Part shown: in pieces, positions 37,718-53,899 of the stretch
Numbering within the stretch: position 1 is the stretch's first letter
Layout of the letters: each line of letters opens with the position of its first letter
Assembly (NCBI RefSeq): GCF_000755245.1
Contig: NZ_BBMP01000024.1
Location: 62,001-126,000 of the forward strand
Length of the DNA: 64,000 nucleotides
From: Halococcus sediminicola
Lineage (GTDB): Archaea; Halobacteriota; Halobacteria; Halobacteriales; Halococcaceae
Direction of reading: 5' to 3'
Translations under genes and position numbers: made by a program
Notes under the pieces: model-generated
What the model saw: the letters and a program-made list of their open reading frames with translations, nothing else
Database searches by the model: none
Told to the model about the DNA's origin: nothing

Positions 37718-39002
37718 CTCACCTCTGCACGTTCATAAACTCCCCTCTGAGTGGAGGAAGAGATGGTCGATTTCCTCCATCAGTCCGTCGAGATCACGAT
37801 CTGGCTGGTCGCGCACCCACGAGAACATGTTGTAGATCGCCTCTTTGAGGCCGTATTCGAGCTGTGCTCGGAGCGACGAGGCTTTCGAGACGAGTCGCTC
37901 CGGGACGCTCGATTCGGGACCAAGACGAAGGAGACTGTAGGTCAGCATCTGAAGGTGCCAGTGGCGACTGGCACCGTCAGAATCACGAACCTCGCAGCCT
38001 CCAAGGCCGAGATCCCGCTTCGAGTCCTCGAAGAATGTCTCGATTCGCCACCGATAGCAATAGCTCCGGATGATATGGGCTGTAGGGGCGTCGACCTTGT
38101 TCGTTGCGAGGTACTTGACCGGATTGTCTTCGTCGTCATCTGTGATTTTCTCAGCGATTGCCAGTCGTACCTCACCTAACTTCGAGACCGGCAGCGTCTT
38201 CGTCCAGATCTTGTACGTTTCTTCGTCGATCCCACGCTCTACCTTGTCGATGCGCTCTTCCAGCGCATCGACGCGCATCTCCTCGTTATCGAAGGTCACC
38301 TGCCGGTTGCTCCGCAGTGGTCCGATCCAGTCCTTGCCGTAGGATTCGACGTGCTTGATCAGGTCCGAATCGTGGGCGAACCACGAGTCAAAGAGGTAGG
38401 TGTCCGCAGGCACACCTACCTCTTCTTCCAATTCCGAGATCATCTCGCGGGCGAGGTCGTACTTCGTCTCGTCCTCGTCGTCCTGGTCTTCGTCGTCGGA
38501 TTTCTCGTACTGGCGAAATGCGAGTGGATAGGAGGTTTTGTCATCGGTGTAGAACGCATAGACGAGGTCCTGTCCCCAGACGGGTTCTCCCTCGGTGTGA
38601 TCGTAGAACTTTCCAGCACCGGGAAGTTCCTTCCCGGTTCGCTGGAACACCGAGTCATCGATGACGATGTAGCCATCCTGTGACCAGCGCGTTTCGCCGT
38701 GTTTTTGCAGTTCCTCTAACCGCTCGTGGTTGAGCCGGTCTTCGTCCCAGTCGTACTCGGTGAGGAATTTGTTGAGTGCTCGGTCGCCTTGAGCCGGAAG
38801 GACTTCACGTGCGATCCCGGTCACGGTCTTGCTGCGGGCCGCAGCAAGACCTGTCACGTACGTTTTGGCGTGATGAGTCTGGTGATACGACAGCGAGTCG
38901 AACTCGTCCAGCGGATCGGTGCAGGACAGGAAGTCCGTAATCGGAAGCATCGGCCGTCACTGCCGGCTACGTCGCGTTCCGACTTAAACGTGCAGAGCCG
39001 AG
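37718..39002. mobile_element. Complete IS (1285 bp), IS4/IS701-type, with terminal repeats and 7-bp target duplication
   Basis: Terminal inverted repeats match over 16 bases with two differences: left end CTCACCTCTGCACGTT at 37718, right end (reverse complement) CTCGGCTCTGCACGTT ending at 39002. The target duplication is TATTTTG at 37711-37717 and 39003-39009. One intact transposase gene. It sits exactly after the stop codon of the ADH gene at 39010, so no gene is broken. A 233-bp MITE with the same ends is found at 46869-47101. Confidence 0.95.
37733..38950 (-). CDS. IS4/IS701-type transposase
   Basis: A 405-residue DDE transposase. Catalytic marks: IVIDDSVFQRTG (first Asp), TYLFDSWFAHDSDLI (second Asp), and YCYRWRIETFFEDSK with the Y-(2)-R-(3)-E-(6)-K spacing. 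An acidic loop KSDDEDQDDEDETKYD is in the core. Intact frame from ATG 38950, nearly filling the IS. Family best read as IS701-like within the IS4 superfamily. Its MITE relative in this window suggests it was active here. Confidence 0.9.
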   Translation of the reverse strand: MLPITDFLSCTDPLDEFDSLSYHQTHHAKTYVTGLAAARSKTVTGIAREVLPAQGDRALNKFLTEYDWDEDRLNHERLEELQKHGETRWSQDGYIVIDDSVFQRTGKELPGAGKFYDHTEGEPVWGQDLVYAFYTDDKTSYPLAFRQYEKSDDEDQDDEDETKYDLAREMISELEEEVGVPADTYLFDSWFAHDSDLIKHVESYGKDWIGPLRSNRQVTFDNEEMRVDALEERIDKVERGIDEETYKIWTKTLPVSKLGEVRLAIAEKITDDDEDNPVKYLATNKVDAPTAHIIRSYCYRWRIETFFEDSKRDLGLGGCEVRDSDGASRHWHLQMLTYSLLRLGPESSVPERLVSKASSLRAQLEYGLKEAIYNMFSWVRDQPDRDLDGLMEEIDHLFLHSEGSL

Positions 39003-46518: not shown

Positions 46519-47541
46519 TCAAAGTGCTCCTCTGTCATATCCTCCGTCAATGGTCATTATTTCTCCAGTTGTGAAAGAAGAGGTATCGCTTGCCAAATAC
46601 ACAGCAGCACCTGCGATTTCATCGGGTTCAGCAACTCGATTGAGTGGTGTCCGCTCGTCAATGGTTTCTCGAATGGATGACCCTTCTGCTAGCCTTTCAC
46701 CAGACAGTTCGGTTTTCACAAACCCTGGAGCAATAGCGTTCACTCTCACATCGGGTGAGAGGTCTTCGGCAGCAGCTCGCGTGAGTCCATTTACGCCACT
46801 TTTTGCGGCGCAGTAGGCCGGCCGATTTTTACGGATTTGTCGGCCAGACATCGATGATATGTTTATGACTCGGCTCTGCACGTTTATAAGCACCGCTCAG
46901 AACGCGGAACAGAGGCCATGAAGCGCTTGTTTCTCTCCTCGATTACTGATGGTATCCAGCTCAGTTAGCCGGGAATCGTCTGATCTGGGTTGGTTTCGAG
47001 TCCCACGAGAATCAGGCGAACAACAGATGATGGCGGGAAATTGCCGATTCACGGTCTGTAACGTCAGTGTTTGAAGGGGTATATAAACGTGCAGAGCCGA
47101 GTTTATGATCGAGCCTTGATCCATTGCTCTGCCGAATACCTGACAGGAGCGGAACACACCTGATAAGAATACATCAATTCCATACTCCCATTGAGCGTCA
47201 TCCATTTCAAGTAAAGATGCATGGTCTGTGTCACCAGCAGAGTTCACGACAATATCGACTGTATCAAACGTATCGAACGCTACGTCTCGCAGATTTTCTA
47301 TGGAGCGACGCTCGCGGACATTGCATGTGACCTCTGCTGTTTCAGCACCGAGGCCCCGCAGCTCATTAGTTATTTCTTGGACTGATTCTGGTGACCGGCT
47401 AGTTGCGATTACGTTTGCTCCATCCATTGCAAATGTGTGAGCTATTCCTCGTCCAATTCCGGTAGTTCCACCGATGACTACAGCATTTTTATCTGAGACT
47501 GAGACCGCTGAGTTGCGATCAGGCATGGAATCAACTGACAT
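46519..47541 (-). pseudogene. SDR gene split by a MITE
   Basis: The N-terminal half begins at ATG 47541, has GGTTGIGRGIA and VNSAG, and runs in frame to 47102. The C-terminal half (46868 down to 46519) has VINISSMSGRQI, YCAAK and the SDR end GEIMTIDGGY. Removing bases 46869-47108 (233-bp element plus one 7-bp duplication, 240 bases) joins them in frame into about 260 residues, the normal SDR length. Thus it was a functional gene until recently. Substrate unknown. Confidence 0.9.
46869..47101. mobile_element. MITE (233 bp) related to the 37.7-kb IS
   Basis: Ends CTCGGCTCTGCACGTT on both sides in inverted orientation, continuing TATAAGC (left) and TATATAC (right), flanked by the target duplication TTTATGA at 46862-46868 and 47102-47108. 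The ends match the right end of the 1285-bp IS exactly over 16 bases and differ from its left end at two. It has no transposase, so it depends on that IS or a relative. The interior shows no gene. Confidence 0.95.
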
Positions 47542-47904
47542 ACTCCTTCTACGTATTTGTTTCCTTAGCGCCCTACGGTCTAAGACTACTAGAAAAATCA
47601 ACTACTCCTCTGGTATCGTGCATTACAGCCCCTCTATACCTGCTGTAGTCTCAACTTCCACAAGCCAAAATTCTGTATTGCATTATGAAGTTTATATATG
47701 CTGTTTCATACGCTATAAAGCTCCAGACTGCTGAGATCGGCGGAATTAGATCTATAGATAGTTACTCGTGCTTAGTTGAATAAGGACCAGTAAACTTACC
47801 CACCACCCCGCCCTCTGCCACAGCCAACGCGATGACAATAGCCAGAACCCTGGTTACGCAGGCTGAGAACTGCATTGGGGTCATTGAATGGAGAGATGTG
47901 TAGA
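47542..47904. other. Intergenic stretch between the split SDR and the integrase
   Basis: 363 bases, AT-rich in its middle. It holds the right copy of the 22-base direct repeat (47632-47653). The final 100 bases have GC-rich text then the integrase start. No tRNA gene was recognised here as an attachment site. Confidence 0.6.
47632..47653. repeat. 22-base direct repeat, right copy
   Basis: Identical to 42860-42881 in the same orientation (CTCTATACCTGCTG ... TAGTCTCA). It lies 250 bases before the integrase start, followed by ACTTCC, which also occurs inverted at 42.9 kb. Possible recombination scar or island boundary. Confidence 0.9.
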
Positions 47905-49053
47905 ATGGTTCGTATCGATGCGGTCACTGAGGACTTCCTGACGGACAAAGGGAAGGGGCAGGGTGGGAAGAGCGGGAACTATCGAAGTGACGCTAGTAGA
48001 GAGCTCGATCGCTTCGTCGAGTTCCTTGCTCAGCACGAGGATGCCGTGACGACGTTCGAGGACTTAGAGTCGGGCCATCTCCGCGAATATGCACGGCATC
48101 TCACCCGGCAGGGCTGGGCGACAGGCACAGTCCGGACCTACTACGCCTATGTTTCGGCGTTCTGTGGCTGGGCGGTTCGTGAAGGGCATCTCGCCGAGAA
48201 CGTCGCCCAGCGGCGTAATGCCACCGAGCCTATCCCTGATGATGGCGGTCACAAGAGCGGTGACCAGCAGGCTTGGTCTGCCGACGACCGCCAACGGCTC
48301 ACCTCTTACGTCGACAAGCAGGCACGCGAAGCTATCGACAACGTCGGTGAGGACCGAGAGGCCGCGATCAAGGCCTGTCGCGACCGCGCTCTCGTCTATC
48401 TCCTTTCGTACTCCGGAGTTCGGGGAGCCGAGGTTCTCCGTGATAAGAGCGATGAGCGCCGGCAAGGACTCCGTTGGGAGGATGTTCACCTCGAGGACCG
48501 CTACGTGACGGTATTCGCGAAAAAGCAGCGTCTCGACGACCGAGGCCTCCCCGGTCCGGTGATCTATCCTTTCAAGGCGTACCAGCGCGTTCTCGACGCT
48601 CCCAGTCCGAATTGGCCGGTCTTCCCCTCTTTCCACCGCCCGACGCTCTCCCAACGGATTACCGAGACGCTCACCGAGCGTGGCTACACCGAGACGGAAA
48701 TCGAGGAGACCAAAGAAGACCAGTCACTCATCGAGACTTGCGTCAAAGCTGACGTCGCGCCACCATCCATCACAACTGACGCAGGACGGCACGTTCTCAA
48801 GCGACTCTGTGACCTGGCAGGCATCGAACTCGATGATGACGATGAGTATCTGATGCCACACGGTGCTCGCCGCGGTGCAGGTGAAGTTCTCGTCCGCACT
48901 TCAGGGCATGCAGCCGCTGCCCGAGCTCTTGATAACTCCGAAGAAGTAGTCCGCGAGCACTACTCACACATCGAAGCCGGTGATCTCGCAAAACAGATGA
49001 CCGACGCCTTCGAAGAAGCCGATCAAAATTCGGACACAGTGCAGAACGAGTGA
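47905..49053 (+). CDS. Tyrosine recombinase (phage-type integrase)
   Basis: A 382-residue integrase. SAM-like N-terminal core-binding region about residues 30-105; catalytic residues Arg173 (SGVRGAEV), His319 and Arg322 (HGARRGAGEVL), His335 and Tyr353 (EHYSHI). The layout is that of haloarchaeal plasmid/virus integrases. ATG 47905 is chosen; longer starts lack support. It stands at the left end of the defence genes and may have carried that island. No tRNA-type attachment site was found. Confidence 0.9.
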   Translation: MVRIDAVTEDFLTDKGKGQGGKSGNYRSDASRELDRFVEFLAQHEDAVTTFEDLESGHLREYARHLTRQGWATGTVRTYYAYVSAFCGWAVREGHLAENVAQRRNATEPIPDDGGHKSGDQQAWSADDRQRLTSYVDKQAREAIDNVGEDREAAIKACRDRALVYLLSYSGVRGAEVLRDKSDERRQGLRWEDVHLEDRYVTVFAKKQRLDDRGLPGPVIYPFKAYQRVLDAPSPNWPVFPSFHRPTLSQRITETLTERGYTETEIEETKEDQSLIETCVKADVAPPSITTDAGRHVLKRLCDLAGIELDDDDEYLMPHGARRGAGEVLVRTSGHAAAARALDNSEEVVREHYSHIEAGDLAKQMTDAFEEADQNSDTVQNE

Positions 49054-49169
49054 ATCCTCTGGTGAATAGCGCAGTGGATTTGGATCGAATAACACGCTGC
49101 TTAGCACCGCTTTAGTATAAAGAAATCAGGGTGGAGAACCGGCTTCACTTTCACCCCGCTCGCGGAAGC

Positions 49170-49177
49170 TTTTACAT
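49170..49177 (+). promoter_or_regulatory. Box A-like element before the CBASS operon
   Basis: TTTTACAT centred about 26 bases before the ATG at 49200, fitting an archaeal TATA box for a leaderless transcript. A second AT-rich stretch (TTTAGTATAA) is further upstream near 49112. Position only; not tested. Confidence 0.35.
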
Positions 49178-49199
49178 CCTAATTGTGTTAGATCCTGCC

Positions 49200-50312
49200 A
49201 TGACAGCGCTACCCTCAAAGTTCGATGGGTTTCTGAAGAAAATTCGGCCTACGAAGCAAAAAGAGGATTACATAGATGGTCACGAAACGCTTCGCGAGCA
49301 CCTCCGAAACTCAGATAAGATCGACGAGATCTACATCACGGACTTTCTGCAAGGCAGCTATCGACGGTGGACGGCAGTAAAGCCACAACAAGACGAGAAA
49401 TCCGATGTCGACGTCGTCTTTGTAAGTGAACTCGATAACGGTGTGGAGGCTAAAGAGGCTCTATCAAAGTGTGAGCCATTTTTGGATGAACACTACGAGG
49501 GCAAGTGGTCTCCCAATGCCCACTCTTACAAGATCGAAGAAGACCTCGTCGAAATAGACCTCGTGTTGACTTCCGTACCCAGTGAAGAAACCCGAGAGAC
49601 GCTTGAAAACTTGGGGTCCTTAGATATCGATACAGGTCTAAGATCCAATAATTCATCCGAAATATCTGAAACACTTGACCTGTCTGCGAACTCGGACGAA
49701 GACGAGTGGAGAGATGAACCACTTGAGATTCCGGATAGAGAGGATAACAAGTGGGAAAGTACACATCCTCTCGAGACAATTGCGTTCACCTTAGAGAAGA
49801 ATAGTGCCACAGACGGCCACTACGTGAACGTCGTCAAAGCTCTCAAGTGGTGGCGTCGAACGAAAACACCCGATGTCGAAGGACCCACCAGTTATCCACT
49901 CGAACATGTCATCGGTGATTGTTGCCCCGACGACATCGATACCGTTGCGGAAGGCGTGACACGGACGCTAGAGAATATCGCGAACAGATATAGAGTCCAA
50001 GCCGACCACAATAATGTACCGTATCTTCAGGCGCGTGGCTTGCCAGCAGACCCCGAAAATGATGTACTGAAACACTACACCGGTGAGGAATTCAGCGCAT
50101 TCCACAGCGAAGTCGACGACGCCGCTACTCAGGCGCGGGAAGCGTTAGACGAACAAAGCAAGAGTGATTCCCGGGATCTCTGGCATGAGCTATTCGGAGA
50201 TATGTTCCCAGAGTACCACGGGAACGACGATTCCGATGATGATGGCGAGAAAGCATCATCCGTGGGGTCGAGGTCAGGCGTCAACAACGCCTCGAATCAT
50301 CAATTCGGCTGA
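49200..50312 (+). CDS. CBASS CD-NTase (cyclic oligonucleotide synthase)
   Basis: A 370-residue nucleotidyltransferase that should make a cyclic oligonucleotide alarm signal when a virus is sensed. Catalytic marks: Gly52-Ser53 in LQGSYRRWTAV, Asp69 and Asp71 (SDVDVV) and Asp120 (VEIDLV). The C-terminal part (about 190-330) is the helical OAS-like half. The tail is disordered and ends in Gly (HQFG), the type of end used by Cap2 to couple the enzyme to a target. The operon continues 15 bases later with Cap2. Signal type is not known; the SAVED effector suggests a cyclic trinucleotide. Start 49200 matches the family; an earlier GTG lacks support. Confidence 0.9.
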   Translation: MTALPSKFDGFLKKIRPTKQKEDYIDGHETLREHLRNSDKIDEIYITDFLQGSYRRWTAVKPQQDEKSDVDVVFVSELDNGVEAKEALSKCEPFLDEHYEGKWSPNAHSYKIEEDLVEIDLVLTSVPSEETRETLENLGSLDIDTGLRSNNSSEISETLDLSANSDEDEWRDEPLEIPDREDNKWESTHPLETIAFTLEKNSATDGHYVNVVKALKWWRRTKTPDVEGPTSYPLEHVIGDCCPDDIDTVAEGVTRTLENIANRYRVQADHNNVPYLQARGLPADPENDVLKHYTGEEFSAFHSEVDDAATQAREALDEQSKSDSRDLWHELFGDMFPEYHGNDDSDDDGEKASSVGSRSGVNNASNHQFG

Positions 50313-50327
50313 ATTCTTCGATCGAAT

Positions 50328-52664
50328 ATGCCCCACTCACAAATCACAGAGGCCGTAGATGCAATCGATTGCCTTTCCGGAGTTGAGGTTCTGAGCGAGT
50401 CAGAGCACTACCAAGACAGAGGGAAATGGGCCGTTAAAGTAAACCTTCATCCTGATGGTCTTGCAGACCACCCAAACGTGCCCGAGGAGACGATCTGGTA
50501 CATTCTCTTGCAAGAAACGTACCCAGCGGGTAGTATCGGTATTTGCCCAGCGGATCAGGAAGAGAATACGATCACAGCGACGTTCCCCCATCAGAGACTG
50601 AACTCGTCTACAATTGATGAGTGCCCGTGGAGAACTGGAGATATCTGTGTGGCTCGGTATGGTCATACCCTCAATCAGGTCGGAGCCGTCGCCGAACCTA
50701 CTGAACCGGATGAACGGCTGTGTTGGCATATGGAGCGCGCACTGGAGTGGTTACAGGCTGCTTCAAAAGGCGAACTTCGCGAACCGGATGACCCGTTTGA
50801 GGTCCCCTTTTTCAACACTATCAGTAGCTCAGGACCGACAATTGCTTTCAATGAAAGCCAGGCAGGACTTGACACTTGGAACGGCGAATACGGGCAGTGG
50901 GGGACGGTAGAGCTACGACATATTCCGACCTCGGAAAACACATACGCCACTCACAACTTCGAAAGAGATGATGAGGTTGTGCACGACTCCGACTGGGGAG
51001 GATACGTAGGAGAAAATTCTACTGACCGGCTCACCGCTGCTTGGGTCCTTCTCGAGGAGATACCAATTTCGTTCCCTTGGGAGACACCTGAGTGTTGGGG
51101 AGAGTTAGATTCCCTACTTAGCGGAACTGCAGTCGAAGCACATGAGTTGCGAGCGAGTATCCAACCGGTACTGGAAGACGAATCGCATAAAATCGTGTTA
51201 CTTGGCTTCCCAATTCCTCAGGTAGTTGACGGCGAGTCAGAGATCATTCACTGGAAGCCAATCGAGATACCCTCATTCGAAGACCCTCAAGACCTTCCTG
51301 GAAGCCACCGAAGAAACTCTCGCGGTCGTGAACTCGCCGAAAGGTTCAGGGACAGCGACGAAAGGATACAATGGCTAGAGTCCGATAATTGGTCACATGA
51401 CCAGCTTACCCGTCGTGGCCACATGAACGAGTGGTTCTTCGATTGCCAGATCGTTCTCATCGGCGCGGGAGCACTCGGTAGTGCCGTTGCAGAAAATCTG
51501 GTTCGGGCTGGCTGCCGCTACCTCACGGTTATTGACCCGGATGATGTCGAGATCGGGAACTTAGCGAGACACACCCTCTCTCTTGCTGATATCGGTCAGG
51601 GCAAAGCAACGGCACTGTCCGACCGGCTTGAGTCAATCGCACCGTATGCGCAGGTCACAGGAATTGATGAGGCGTTTGCGCCGAACACTCCGATGCCCGC
51701 CTATCTTTCCGAAGCAGATGTCATAGTCGATTGTACGGCTTCAGACGCTGTTCGCCACGCGCTCGCGAGTCTCTCCTGGGAAGATCCGGTCGTGTTCCAC
51801 TCCGCTGCCATGGGACGGCGAGCAAATCGCTTGTATTGTTTCTCTGCATACGAGCGTACTTTTCCATACGAAGAATACGATGATGCATTCGATCTGTGGC
51901 GATTACGTGAGCATGTAGAATGGGATGAAACGGCCGACGCAGTCCCCGAACGAATCGGATGTTGGCACCCTGCGTCGGTGATCCGAACAGATCGAGTAAT
52001 GATGTGGGCGGGACAGGTGACGAGAGTATTAGATAACGCCCCGACCGTTACCCTACAGAACCCCGAATTCCTCGTGTTAGAGACTGGAAGCGAGGAGTGT
52101 TCTTGGGAGGTCTCGCAGCCGGACCCACCTTTCGAGAACGTGATTACATGGAATTCATCAGACCAAGAAGAGACGGTGCAGCTTCCTCTCAAGTGTGTCG
52201 AATCAATGAAAGTGCGTTGTGAGAAGGACCACCCAAACGAGACTGGTGGTATTGCTGCCGGGTCAACCCGAGAAGGGAGACCCGCATTAGTGGTTAATGC
52301 GAAAGATCCCCCAAGAGATTCGATCCACAGCCCAACACGGTTTCTCCGGGGAACCGAGGAAGTCGAAGAGTGGCTTCGAGATGCGAGAGAGAGCATCGGG
52401 CTCAAATATTTCGGTGAGTGGCATTACCACCCCGAGCAACGCCCAGCGGTGAGCGAGAAGGATCGTGACGCAATGAATGAAATCGCTGCTGACCGAGATT
52501 ACAACTGTCCTCACCCGTTGTTGTTCATTATGGGTGAAGATGAGTCAGGGCACTGTTCGATAGCAGTGTACCAATTTCACCGAAATAGCGAGTATGAGCG
52601 CTTAGAGCAAGTTGAGCAGTCTGAGCAGATTACCGAACTCCTCAAAGAAGGTATGGATGTATGA
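50328..52664 (+). CDS. CBASS Cap2-Cap3 fusion: E2, E1 and JAB peptidase in one chain
   Basis: A 778-residue protein joining three activities. Residues about 20-150 look like an E2-type domain with a likely catalytic Cys107 in RTGDICVARYGH. Residues about 370-600 form the E1 ThiF fold with GAGALGS (379-385) and DPDDVEIGNLARH. Residues about 630-760 form a JAB/JAMM deconjugase: Glu638 in NETGGIAAG, His699 and His701 in WHYHPEQ, Ser709 and Asp712. Known type II CBASS systems have a separate Cap3 peptidase; here it is fused. It should transfer the CD-NTase C-terminal Gly to a target and also reverse it. It overlaps the effector by 4 bases. Confidence 0.9.
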   Translation: MPHSQITEAVDAIDCLSGVEVLSESEHYQDRGKWAVKVNLHPDGLADHPNVPEETIWYILLQETYPAGSIGICPADQEENTITATFPHQRLNSSTIDECPWRTGDICVARYGHTLNQVGAVAEPTEPDERLCWHMERALEWLQAASKGELREPDDPFEVPFFNTISSSGPTIAFNESQAGLDTWNGEYGQWGTVELRHIPTSENTYATHNFERDDEVVHDSDWGGYVGENSTDRLTAAWVLLEEIPISFPWETPECWGELDSLLSGTAVEAHELRASIQPVLEDESHKIVLLGFPIPQVVDGESEIIHWKPIEIPSFEDPQDLPGSHRRNSRGRELAERFRDSDERIQWLESDNWSHDQLTRRGHMNEWFFDCQIVLIGAGALGSAVAENLVRAGCRYLTVIDPDDVEIGNLARHTLSLADIGQGKATALSDRLESIAPYAQVTGIDEAFAPNTPMPAYLSEADVIVDCTASDAVRHALASLSWEDPVVFHSAAMGRRANRLYCFSAYERTFPYEEYDDAFDLWRLREHVEWDETADAVPERIGCWHPASVIRTDRVMMWAGQVTRVLDNAPTVTLQNPEFLVLETGSEECSWEVSQPDPPFENVITWNSSDQEETVQLPLKCVESMKVRCEKDHPNETGGIAAGSTREGRPALVVNAKDPPRDSIHSPTRFLRGTEEVEEWLRDARESIGLKYFGEWHYHPEQRPAVSEKDRDAMNEIAADRDYNCPHPLLFIMGEDESGHCSIAVYQFHRNSEYERLEQVEQSEQITELLKEGMDV

Positions 52665-53899
52665 CTGAGATCACTGGAAACGTGTTCCTTAGCTATAAGC
52701 ACGAACAAAAAGATGTGGCTACGGTTCTTCAGGAATCGTTAGAAGACCACGGGATACCGGTTTGGCGGGATATCTTCGATCTCCGCCCAGAACCCCTACG
52801 AGACGAAATCAGGGATAAACTAACGAGTCCAGACATAGCTTGTGGAGTCGCTCTCATTAGCGAAGGGGTGGCAGGCTCAGAGGTCATACTCGAAGACGAA
52901 CTCCCTGGACTCAGACGTCGCTGGGATGCTGGTGACGGATTTTTCATTGTTCTCGTTCCACATCCCGATCTTAGTGCGACTGATGCTAAGCCGATTCTGG
53001 AGAAAGCTAGCGGCCCGATAAATCTCAAATCGTGGAAGATGGTCCCACTTGAAGCTGCTACGTCCGAAGCCGCTCGGAGTATTTCGAAGACGGTGCTGCA
53101 AGAGCGACTTCGCCAAGCTGACGAAGAACTTTCTTCTGATGAGCCGATCGAATGCTCATTGGATACTCGGGACTCGCCGGCTTACTCTATCGATCCTCTC
53201 GTCGTTATCGACTGGGAGAAACATTTCGACGTAGGACTTCCTTCACGAAGCCTTTGGGAGCAACGGCTTCTACCATCCTTAGAAACAACGACGGATTTTC
53301 TGAACGAGTATGCGTCAGGACGAACCCTCCGTTTTCGAGGGAAATCTCATTTGTGTTCTTCGTTCGCATTGGGATACTCCCTACCGAGCGTCCGAGGAAC
53401 GTCTACGACATGGATGCAGCCGAGCAGATATGGTGGATTTCATGAATATACACTCTCCAAATCAAAAGAGGACAGCACGATCAAAGGCAAATTCGAAGAG
53501 TTAGACGGTTCTGACAACGATCTTGCTGTCTTGGTGAACGTTCTCAATGATGTCTCAAACGATATGGAGAACGTGAGGAACGAATTACCGGACTTCAACG
53601 CTGAGCTCCGATTGACTCCAGAAGTCGATAGTTATGACGACCTGAATGCGGGACAGGCAGTAGACATTGCAACCACGTTCAGGTCTGAGATACGGAAGGC
53701 ACTCCAAAAGGTATCAGATACCGAAACTATCCATCTTTTCATGGCAGTGCCAACGGGGCTTGCGTTTTTGATGGGTCAAGAATCTAATGCACTACGACAA
53801 TTCCAAACATATTGCCATATGAAAGATACTGGGGAGTACAAGCAAGGACCGTTACTCCAAAGCCAGTCATATACTTCGAAGCCTGATCAGTCAGAATAA
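52661..53899 (+). CDS. TIR-SAVED effector of CBASS
   Basis: A 412-residue protein. Residues about 8-150 are a TIR domain (VFLSYKHEQKDVATVLQESL, GIPVWRD) with a likely catalytic Glu in the SEVILEDEL stretch (Glu78 or Glu80). Residues about 190-400 are a SAVED domain (LFMAVPTGLAFLMGQES). TIR-SAVED proteins bind a cyclic trinucleotide, assemble, and destroy NAD+, killing the infected cell. It starts with an overlap to the Cap2-Cap3 stop (ATGA). Last gene of the operon. Cofactor and ligand are from family knowledge. Confidence 0.9.
   Translation: MTEITGNVFLSYKHEQKDVATVLQESLEDHGIPVWRDIFDLRPEPLRDEIRDKLTSPDIACGVALISEGVAGSEVILEDELPGLRRRWDAGDGFFIVLVPHPDLSATDAKPILEKASGPINLKSWKMVPLEAATSEAARSISKTVLQERLRQADEELSSDEPIECSLDTRDSPAYSIDPLVVIDWEKHFDVGLPSRSLWEQRLLPSLETTTDFLNEYASGRTLRFRGKSHLCSSFALGYSLPSVRGTSTTWMQPSRYGGFHEYTLSKSKEDSTIKGKFEELDGSDNDLAVLVNVLNDVSNDMENVRNELPDFNAELRLTPEVDSYDDLNAGQAVDIATTFRSEIRKALQKVSDTETIHLFMAVPTGLAFLMGQESNALRQFQTYCHMKDTGEYKQGPLLQSQSYTSKPDQSE

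Follow-up and report, generated by a model that had tools for sequence, protein, structure and literature searches.

A 233-bp MITE of a haloarchaeal family interrupts an SDR gene in Halococcus sediminicola, 7.9 kb from an IS701-like element with similar ends

The 64,000-nucleotide stretch of Halococcus sediminicola DNA analysed here (termed the window; contig NZ_BBMP01000024.1, positions 62,001 to 126,000) carries an SDR gene that lies in two pieces, and the question raised by this locus is what kind of element separated them and which enzyme might have moved it. A preliminary description, made from the letters alone, had attributed the break to a MITE of 233 bp bordered by an exact target duplication. 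The gene is read from the minus strand and the features at the break are as follows.

46519–46868, minus strand: 3' part of the SDR gene (catalytic Ser, YCAAK, C terminus; Pfam PF13561 positions 120–235)
46862–46868, no strand: left copy of the target site duplication (TSD), TTTATGA
46869–47101, no strand: non-autonomous MITE of 233 bp, with perfect 20-bp terminal inverted repeats (TIRs), a 7-bp TSD and a family-model match, and without a coding frame of its own
46869–46888, plus strand: left TIR, CTCGGCTCTGCACGTTTATA
46897–46899, minus strand: sole in-frame stop (TGA) between the SDR halves, within the MITE
47082–47101, minus strand: right TIR, whose minus-strand sequence is CTCGGCTCTGCACGTTTATA
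47102–47108, no strand: right copy of the TSD, TTTATGA
47102–47541, minus strand: 5' part of the SDR gene (Rossmann glycine motif, NSAG motif; Pfam PF00106 positions 1–133)

The stretch from 46862 to 47108 thus has the layout TTTATGA - CTCGGCTCTGCACGTTTATA ... TATAAACGTGCAGAGCCGAG - TTTATGA. The flanking duplications and the matching inverted ends had both been claimed beforehand and both were confirmed, the two TSD copies being identical at 7/7 positions and the TIRs at 20/20, or 21/21 when one flanking base per side is counted. A 7/7 match at a set position would arise by chance with a frequency of ~6e-5, and a 20/20 inverted match with one of ~1e-12. The open frames within the element were found to be only the fused SDR frames.

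Removal of 240 bp, that is the MITE together with one repeat, gave a single open SDR frame of 260 amino acids starting from the ATG at 47541, exactly as had been proposed. The insert length of 240 bp is divisible by three, and the frame is interrupted solely by the TGA at 46897–46899. The classical SDR motifs (GGTTGIGRG, NSAG, ISSMSG and YCAAK) are distributed over both halves, which match complementary parts of the PF00106 and PF13561 profiles. On the SDR strand the duplicated bases read TCATAAA and fall in the I-I-N codons of the conserved SIINISS strand, placing the insertion point directly ahead of the catalytic Ser and YxxxK.

The preliminary description had suggested comparison with an intact SDR from other strains; here intact SDRs of related haloarchaea were compared. 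The restored protein aligned end to end with orthologues sharing 71% (genome G013), 65% (G002) and 64% (G006) identity, all unbroken at the junction, where they read SIVN(I/V)SS. Each half aligned with its own part of these orthologues in the correct order and frame, with identities to the three closest of 59–69% for the 5' part and 71–75% for the 3' part, indicating that the halves derive from one gene and not from two different ones. Neither half contains a stop or frameshift, the MITE aside, and 67 of the 69 residues invariant in eight SDR homologues are kept, the two differences both being mild. Together with the perfect TIRs and TSD, this state of preservation lends indirect support to the earlier view that the break is recent, and the insertion is probably a young one.

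The insertion parts the cofactor-binding portion of the protein from the catalytic Ser and YCAAK, and therefore loss of SDR function is expected from the sequence. The nearest other SDR of the same genome (search at E ≤ 1e-40) shares only 38% identity, so no close spare copy is present. Intact plasmid-borne relatives occur in other haloarchaea, for example in Haladaptatus pallidirubidus (68%), where the gene adjoins gluconate-symporter and mandelate-racemase-type genes, and in Haloarcula sp. JP-L23 (66.5%), where it adjoins TRAP-transport genes. Gene disruption by the insertion of a mobile element is a common type of mutation.

The surroundings of the broken gene were also inspected. A tyrosine integrase gene (47875–49053, plus strand) adjoins both the SDR gene and a CBASS-like defence operon (49131–53899, plus strand), the latter encoding a CD-NTase cyclase (PADLOC PDLC00822, 8e-135), an E1-E2-JAB protein (PDLC00835, 1481 bits) and, as judged by eye, a probable TIR-type effector (52661–53899). 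The G+C content drops from 64% in the upstream gene to 45–50% in the SDR region. Given the integrase neighbour and this drop in G+C, the SDR/integrase region may mark the border of an integrated island.

A genome search with the MITE end returned an insertion sequence in the window, 7.9 kb from the MITE.

37718–39002, no strand: intact autonomous IS of 1285 bp with ends matching those of the MITE; TSD TATTTTG (7 bp)
37733–38950, minus strand: its DDE transposase, 405 amino acids, IS701-like, with a complete YREK motif (NCBIfam NF033540; Pfam DDE_5 and DDE_Tnp_1)

The end of this IS at the 5' side of the transposase gene matches the MITE end at 18 contiguous bases, while the opposite end has three mismatches in 20. 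The transposase scored 249 bits against the NCBIfam IS701 model NF033540, for which the cut-off is 150. Elsewhere in the genome, the homologues recovered were fragments or interrupted copies. A second IS of the group is present in the same genome (L031; G000:C27:63061-64230), being 53% identical and 1237 bp long; it has a duplication of 6 bp (TAACTA), and its matched stretch contains one stop. The IS in the window is plausibly the best candidate source of a transposase acting on the MITE in trans.

Homologues of the window IS include ISHti12 of Halorhabdus tiamatea and ISHala4 of Halobiforma lacisalsi, as well as the IS701-like elements L041, L044, L045, L079 and L086. The transposases of ISHti12 and ISHala4 are ~ 70% identical to that of the window IS and these elements have similar ends (CTCAGCTTTGnACGTT) and exact 7-bp TSDs, but they are ~ 1280 bp long with a transposase gene, whereas the MITE encodes none. 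Exact 7-bp duplications were observed for L041 (TGAGTTA), ISHti12 (TTTGTAA), ISHala4 (TTGGTTA), L079 (TCCTGTA) and L086 (CATAGTA), making six elements when the window IS is included; elsewhere the duplication was of 6 or 8 bp, or there was none. A complete YREK motif (Y..R...E......K) was present in all 10 transposases checked. The IS701 family as founded has 4-bp duplications, a length of 1400–1550 bp and a YREK motif from which the tyrosine is usually absent (PMC2266710). The haloarchaeal group, although its window member scores above the IS701 cut-off, differs from that description in duplicating 7 bp instead of 4, in having the complete Y(2)R(3)E(6)K motif and in being shorter (~ 1285 bp), with other terminal bases. 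These ISs therefore belong to IS701 by the HMM but are at odds with three described traits of the family. No paper naming ISHti12 or ISHala4 was found in the literature searched.

Relatives of the MITE itself were sought in 392 genomes of the order using the MITE end. A blastn search of those genomes with the 233-bp element gave no full-length match, and relatives surfaced only when pairs of ends were searched for; searches of plasmid and viral collections recovered neither the MITE nor its exact end. Paired ends lay 234–235 bp apart in G103 and G374, single MITE-like ends pointed to elements of 244 bp in G006 and one of 235 bp in G003, and a 244-bp member used as query recovered further relatives in G339 (two) and G372 as well as an incomplete copy in G009. 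The family as found therefore comprises elements in G003, G006 (two), G103, G339 (two), G372 and G374, together with the partial copy in G009, so that at least six further haloarchaeal genomes carry members of 234–244 bp whose ends are similar. Exact 7-bp TSDs flank relatives of 235–244 bp in G006 (CAGTGAG), G103 (TTAGAGG) and G372 (TTTAGAA). The repeat at the G003 copy is only 3 bp, and the G374 copy and one of the G006 copies have no TSD; these three were assigned to the family by their ends and interior only. Weak matches to the family model in G038, G080 and G368 (E ~1e-4) yielded no end pair and were taken as chance.

A family model was built from six members with the window copy left out to avoid circularity, and it found the window MITE over its full length (E = 1.7e-16). 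When the ends were removed, the interior-only profile still gave the MITE as its top match in the window (E = 0.0011), above all 500 shuffles, and the interior identity to the nearest member was ~ 57% (z 6.6 against shuffles). The likeness between the interiors is therefore real but weak.

In its own genome, a draft in 27 contigs, the MITE is present as one copy, and the multi-copy state usual for prokaryotic MITEs is seen at the level of the family only. In other respects it has the properties of a MITE, being short and devoid of a transposase gene, with TIRs, IS-like ends and a TSD of the same length as that of the window IS and five related ISs. Five families of MITEs are known in Haloquadratum walsbyi, which have ends and a duplication length in common with an IS and undergo mobilization in trans (PMC3119063). 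Those elements are likewise small and free of a transposase gene, have transposon-related TIRs, target duplications and interiors unrelated to the IS, and also interrupt other sequences, such as a CRISPR spacer. They differ in being multi-copy in their host, whereas the present element is single-copy, and the two are set apart here by description and not by sequence. No account of MITEs of the window IS's group was found in the literature searched, ISfinder and the Haloquadratum MITE sequences lying outside the comparison. While no earlier description of this MITE family was found, the kind itself, a haloarchaeal MITE sharing the ends of an IS, is well described.

The element was also examined for other properties. 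A TTTATA-like box can be read near the inner end of each TIR (46869–46890 and 47080–47101), and such boxes could serve as archaeal promoters reading into the adjoining sequence. Rfam gave no match to the MITE. The whole element folds strongly (z −5.9) because of its inverted repeats, the core by itself showing at most a slight advantage over shuffles (z −1.2 and 0.0), and an RNA role was rejected on these grounds.

The reading that accommodates most of these data, with a probability of about 0.93, is that a MITE of a haloarchaeal family, moved in trans by an IS701-like DDE transposase, inserted at TTTATGA in an intact 260-codon SDR gene and inactivated it. The preliminary description's identification of a MITE insertion is borne out by the size of the element, its TIRs, TSD and absence of coding content, its relatives elsewhere and the matching autonomous IS. 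In mechanistic terms, the DDE transposase of an IS701-like IS would act in trans on the non-coding MITE, which would enter the TTTATGA site inside the intact gene. Repair of the staggered cut would produce the 7-bp duplication, and the NAD(P)-binding part would be separated from the catalytic Ser-Tyr-Lys part, inactivating the SDR. The predicted products are a truncated protein of 214 amino acids ending at the TGA within the MITE and a 3' fragment that lacks the Rossmann start. The anatomy of the insertion, the reconstructed empty site, the matching IS, the intact orthologues and the relatives of the MITE are direct observations, and the identity of the transposase, the inactivation of the enzyme and the recency of the event are inferences. 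Weighing against this reading are the failure to find an empty allele within the species, the single copy of the MITE in its own genome, the weak interior similarity to the other members, and the mismatches between the second end of the window IS and the MITE.

It could be that the MITE is a decayed copy of the window IS produced by internal deletion, and that it does not belong to a distinct MITE family; both the 18 contiguous bases common to the two and the 91% identity of the left 34 bp of the MITE to the transposase-3' end of L041 point in that direction. However, the similarity of the MITE to the ISs found does not extend beyond its ends. These both resemble the transposase-3' end of the ISs, not one of each, which is at odds with a simple internal deletion; moreover, the leave-one-out model of other 234–244-bp elements covers the MITE over its full length. 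This origin is already disfavoured and we regard it as improbable. Another possibility is that the gene tolerates the insertion and continues to yield a product, either by readthrough of the single TGA or by transcription of the 3' half from the TATA-like inverted repeat of the MITE. An insert divisible by three, a frame broken by one stop only and the TTTATA-like boxes in both TIRs would suit such an arrangement. Against this, a multiple of three has a 1 in 3 chance of arising anyway, the fold would very probably not survive 80 extra residues just ahead of the catalytic Ser, and Rfam shows nothing in the element; no recoding signal is known at this locus, and the chance that it still makes a product in this way appears very slight. 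Least probable of all is an error of assembly, whether an artefact or a chimeric join. Although the assembly is a draft of 27 contigs, a single-copy MITE offers no repeat to mislead an assembler, and the exact TSD and TIR geometry combined with restoration of the frame is not expected from a misjoin.

Beyond the insertion of the MITE into the SDR gene, a wider and distinctly more speculative proposal can be made, namely that the 233–244-bp elements form a conserved family of haloarchaeal MITEs in which length and left arm have been kept across genera while the remainder diverged, that the interior may have a function (as an aid to transposition, a promoter or an RNA), and that the partner ISs could constitute a distinct group with 7-bp TSDs between IS701 and IS4.

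The locus provides a clean archaeal case of a gene inactivated by a MITE, and the probable transposase source lies within the same 64-kb window. It also supplies a seed for a MITE family and for a subgroup of ISs outside the published definition of IS701, and the pairing of MITE and IS makes the cognate-transposase model of MITE mobility directly testable.
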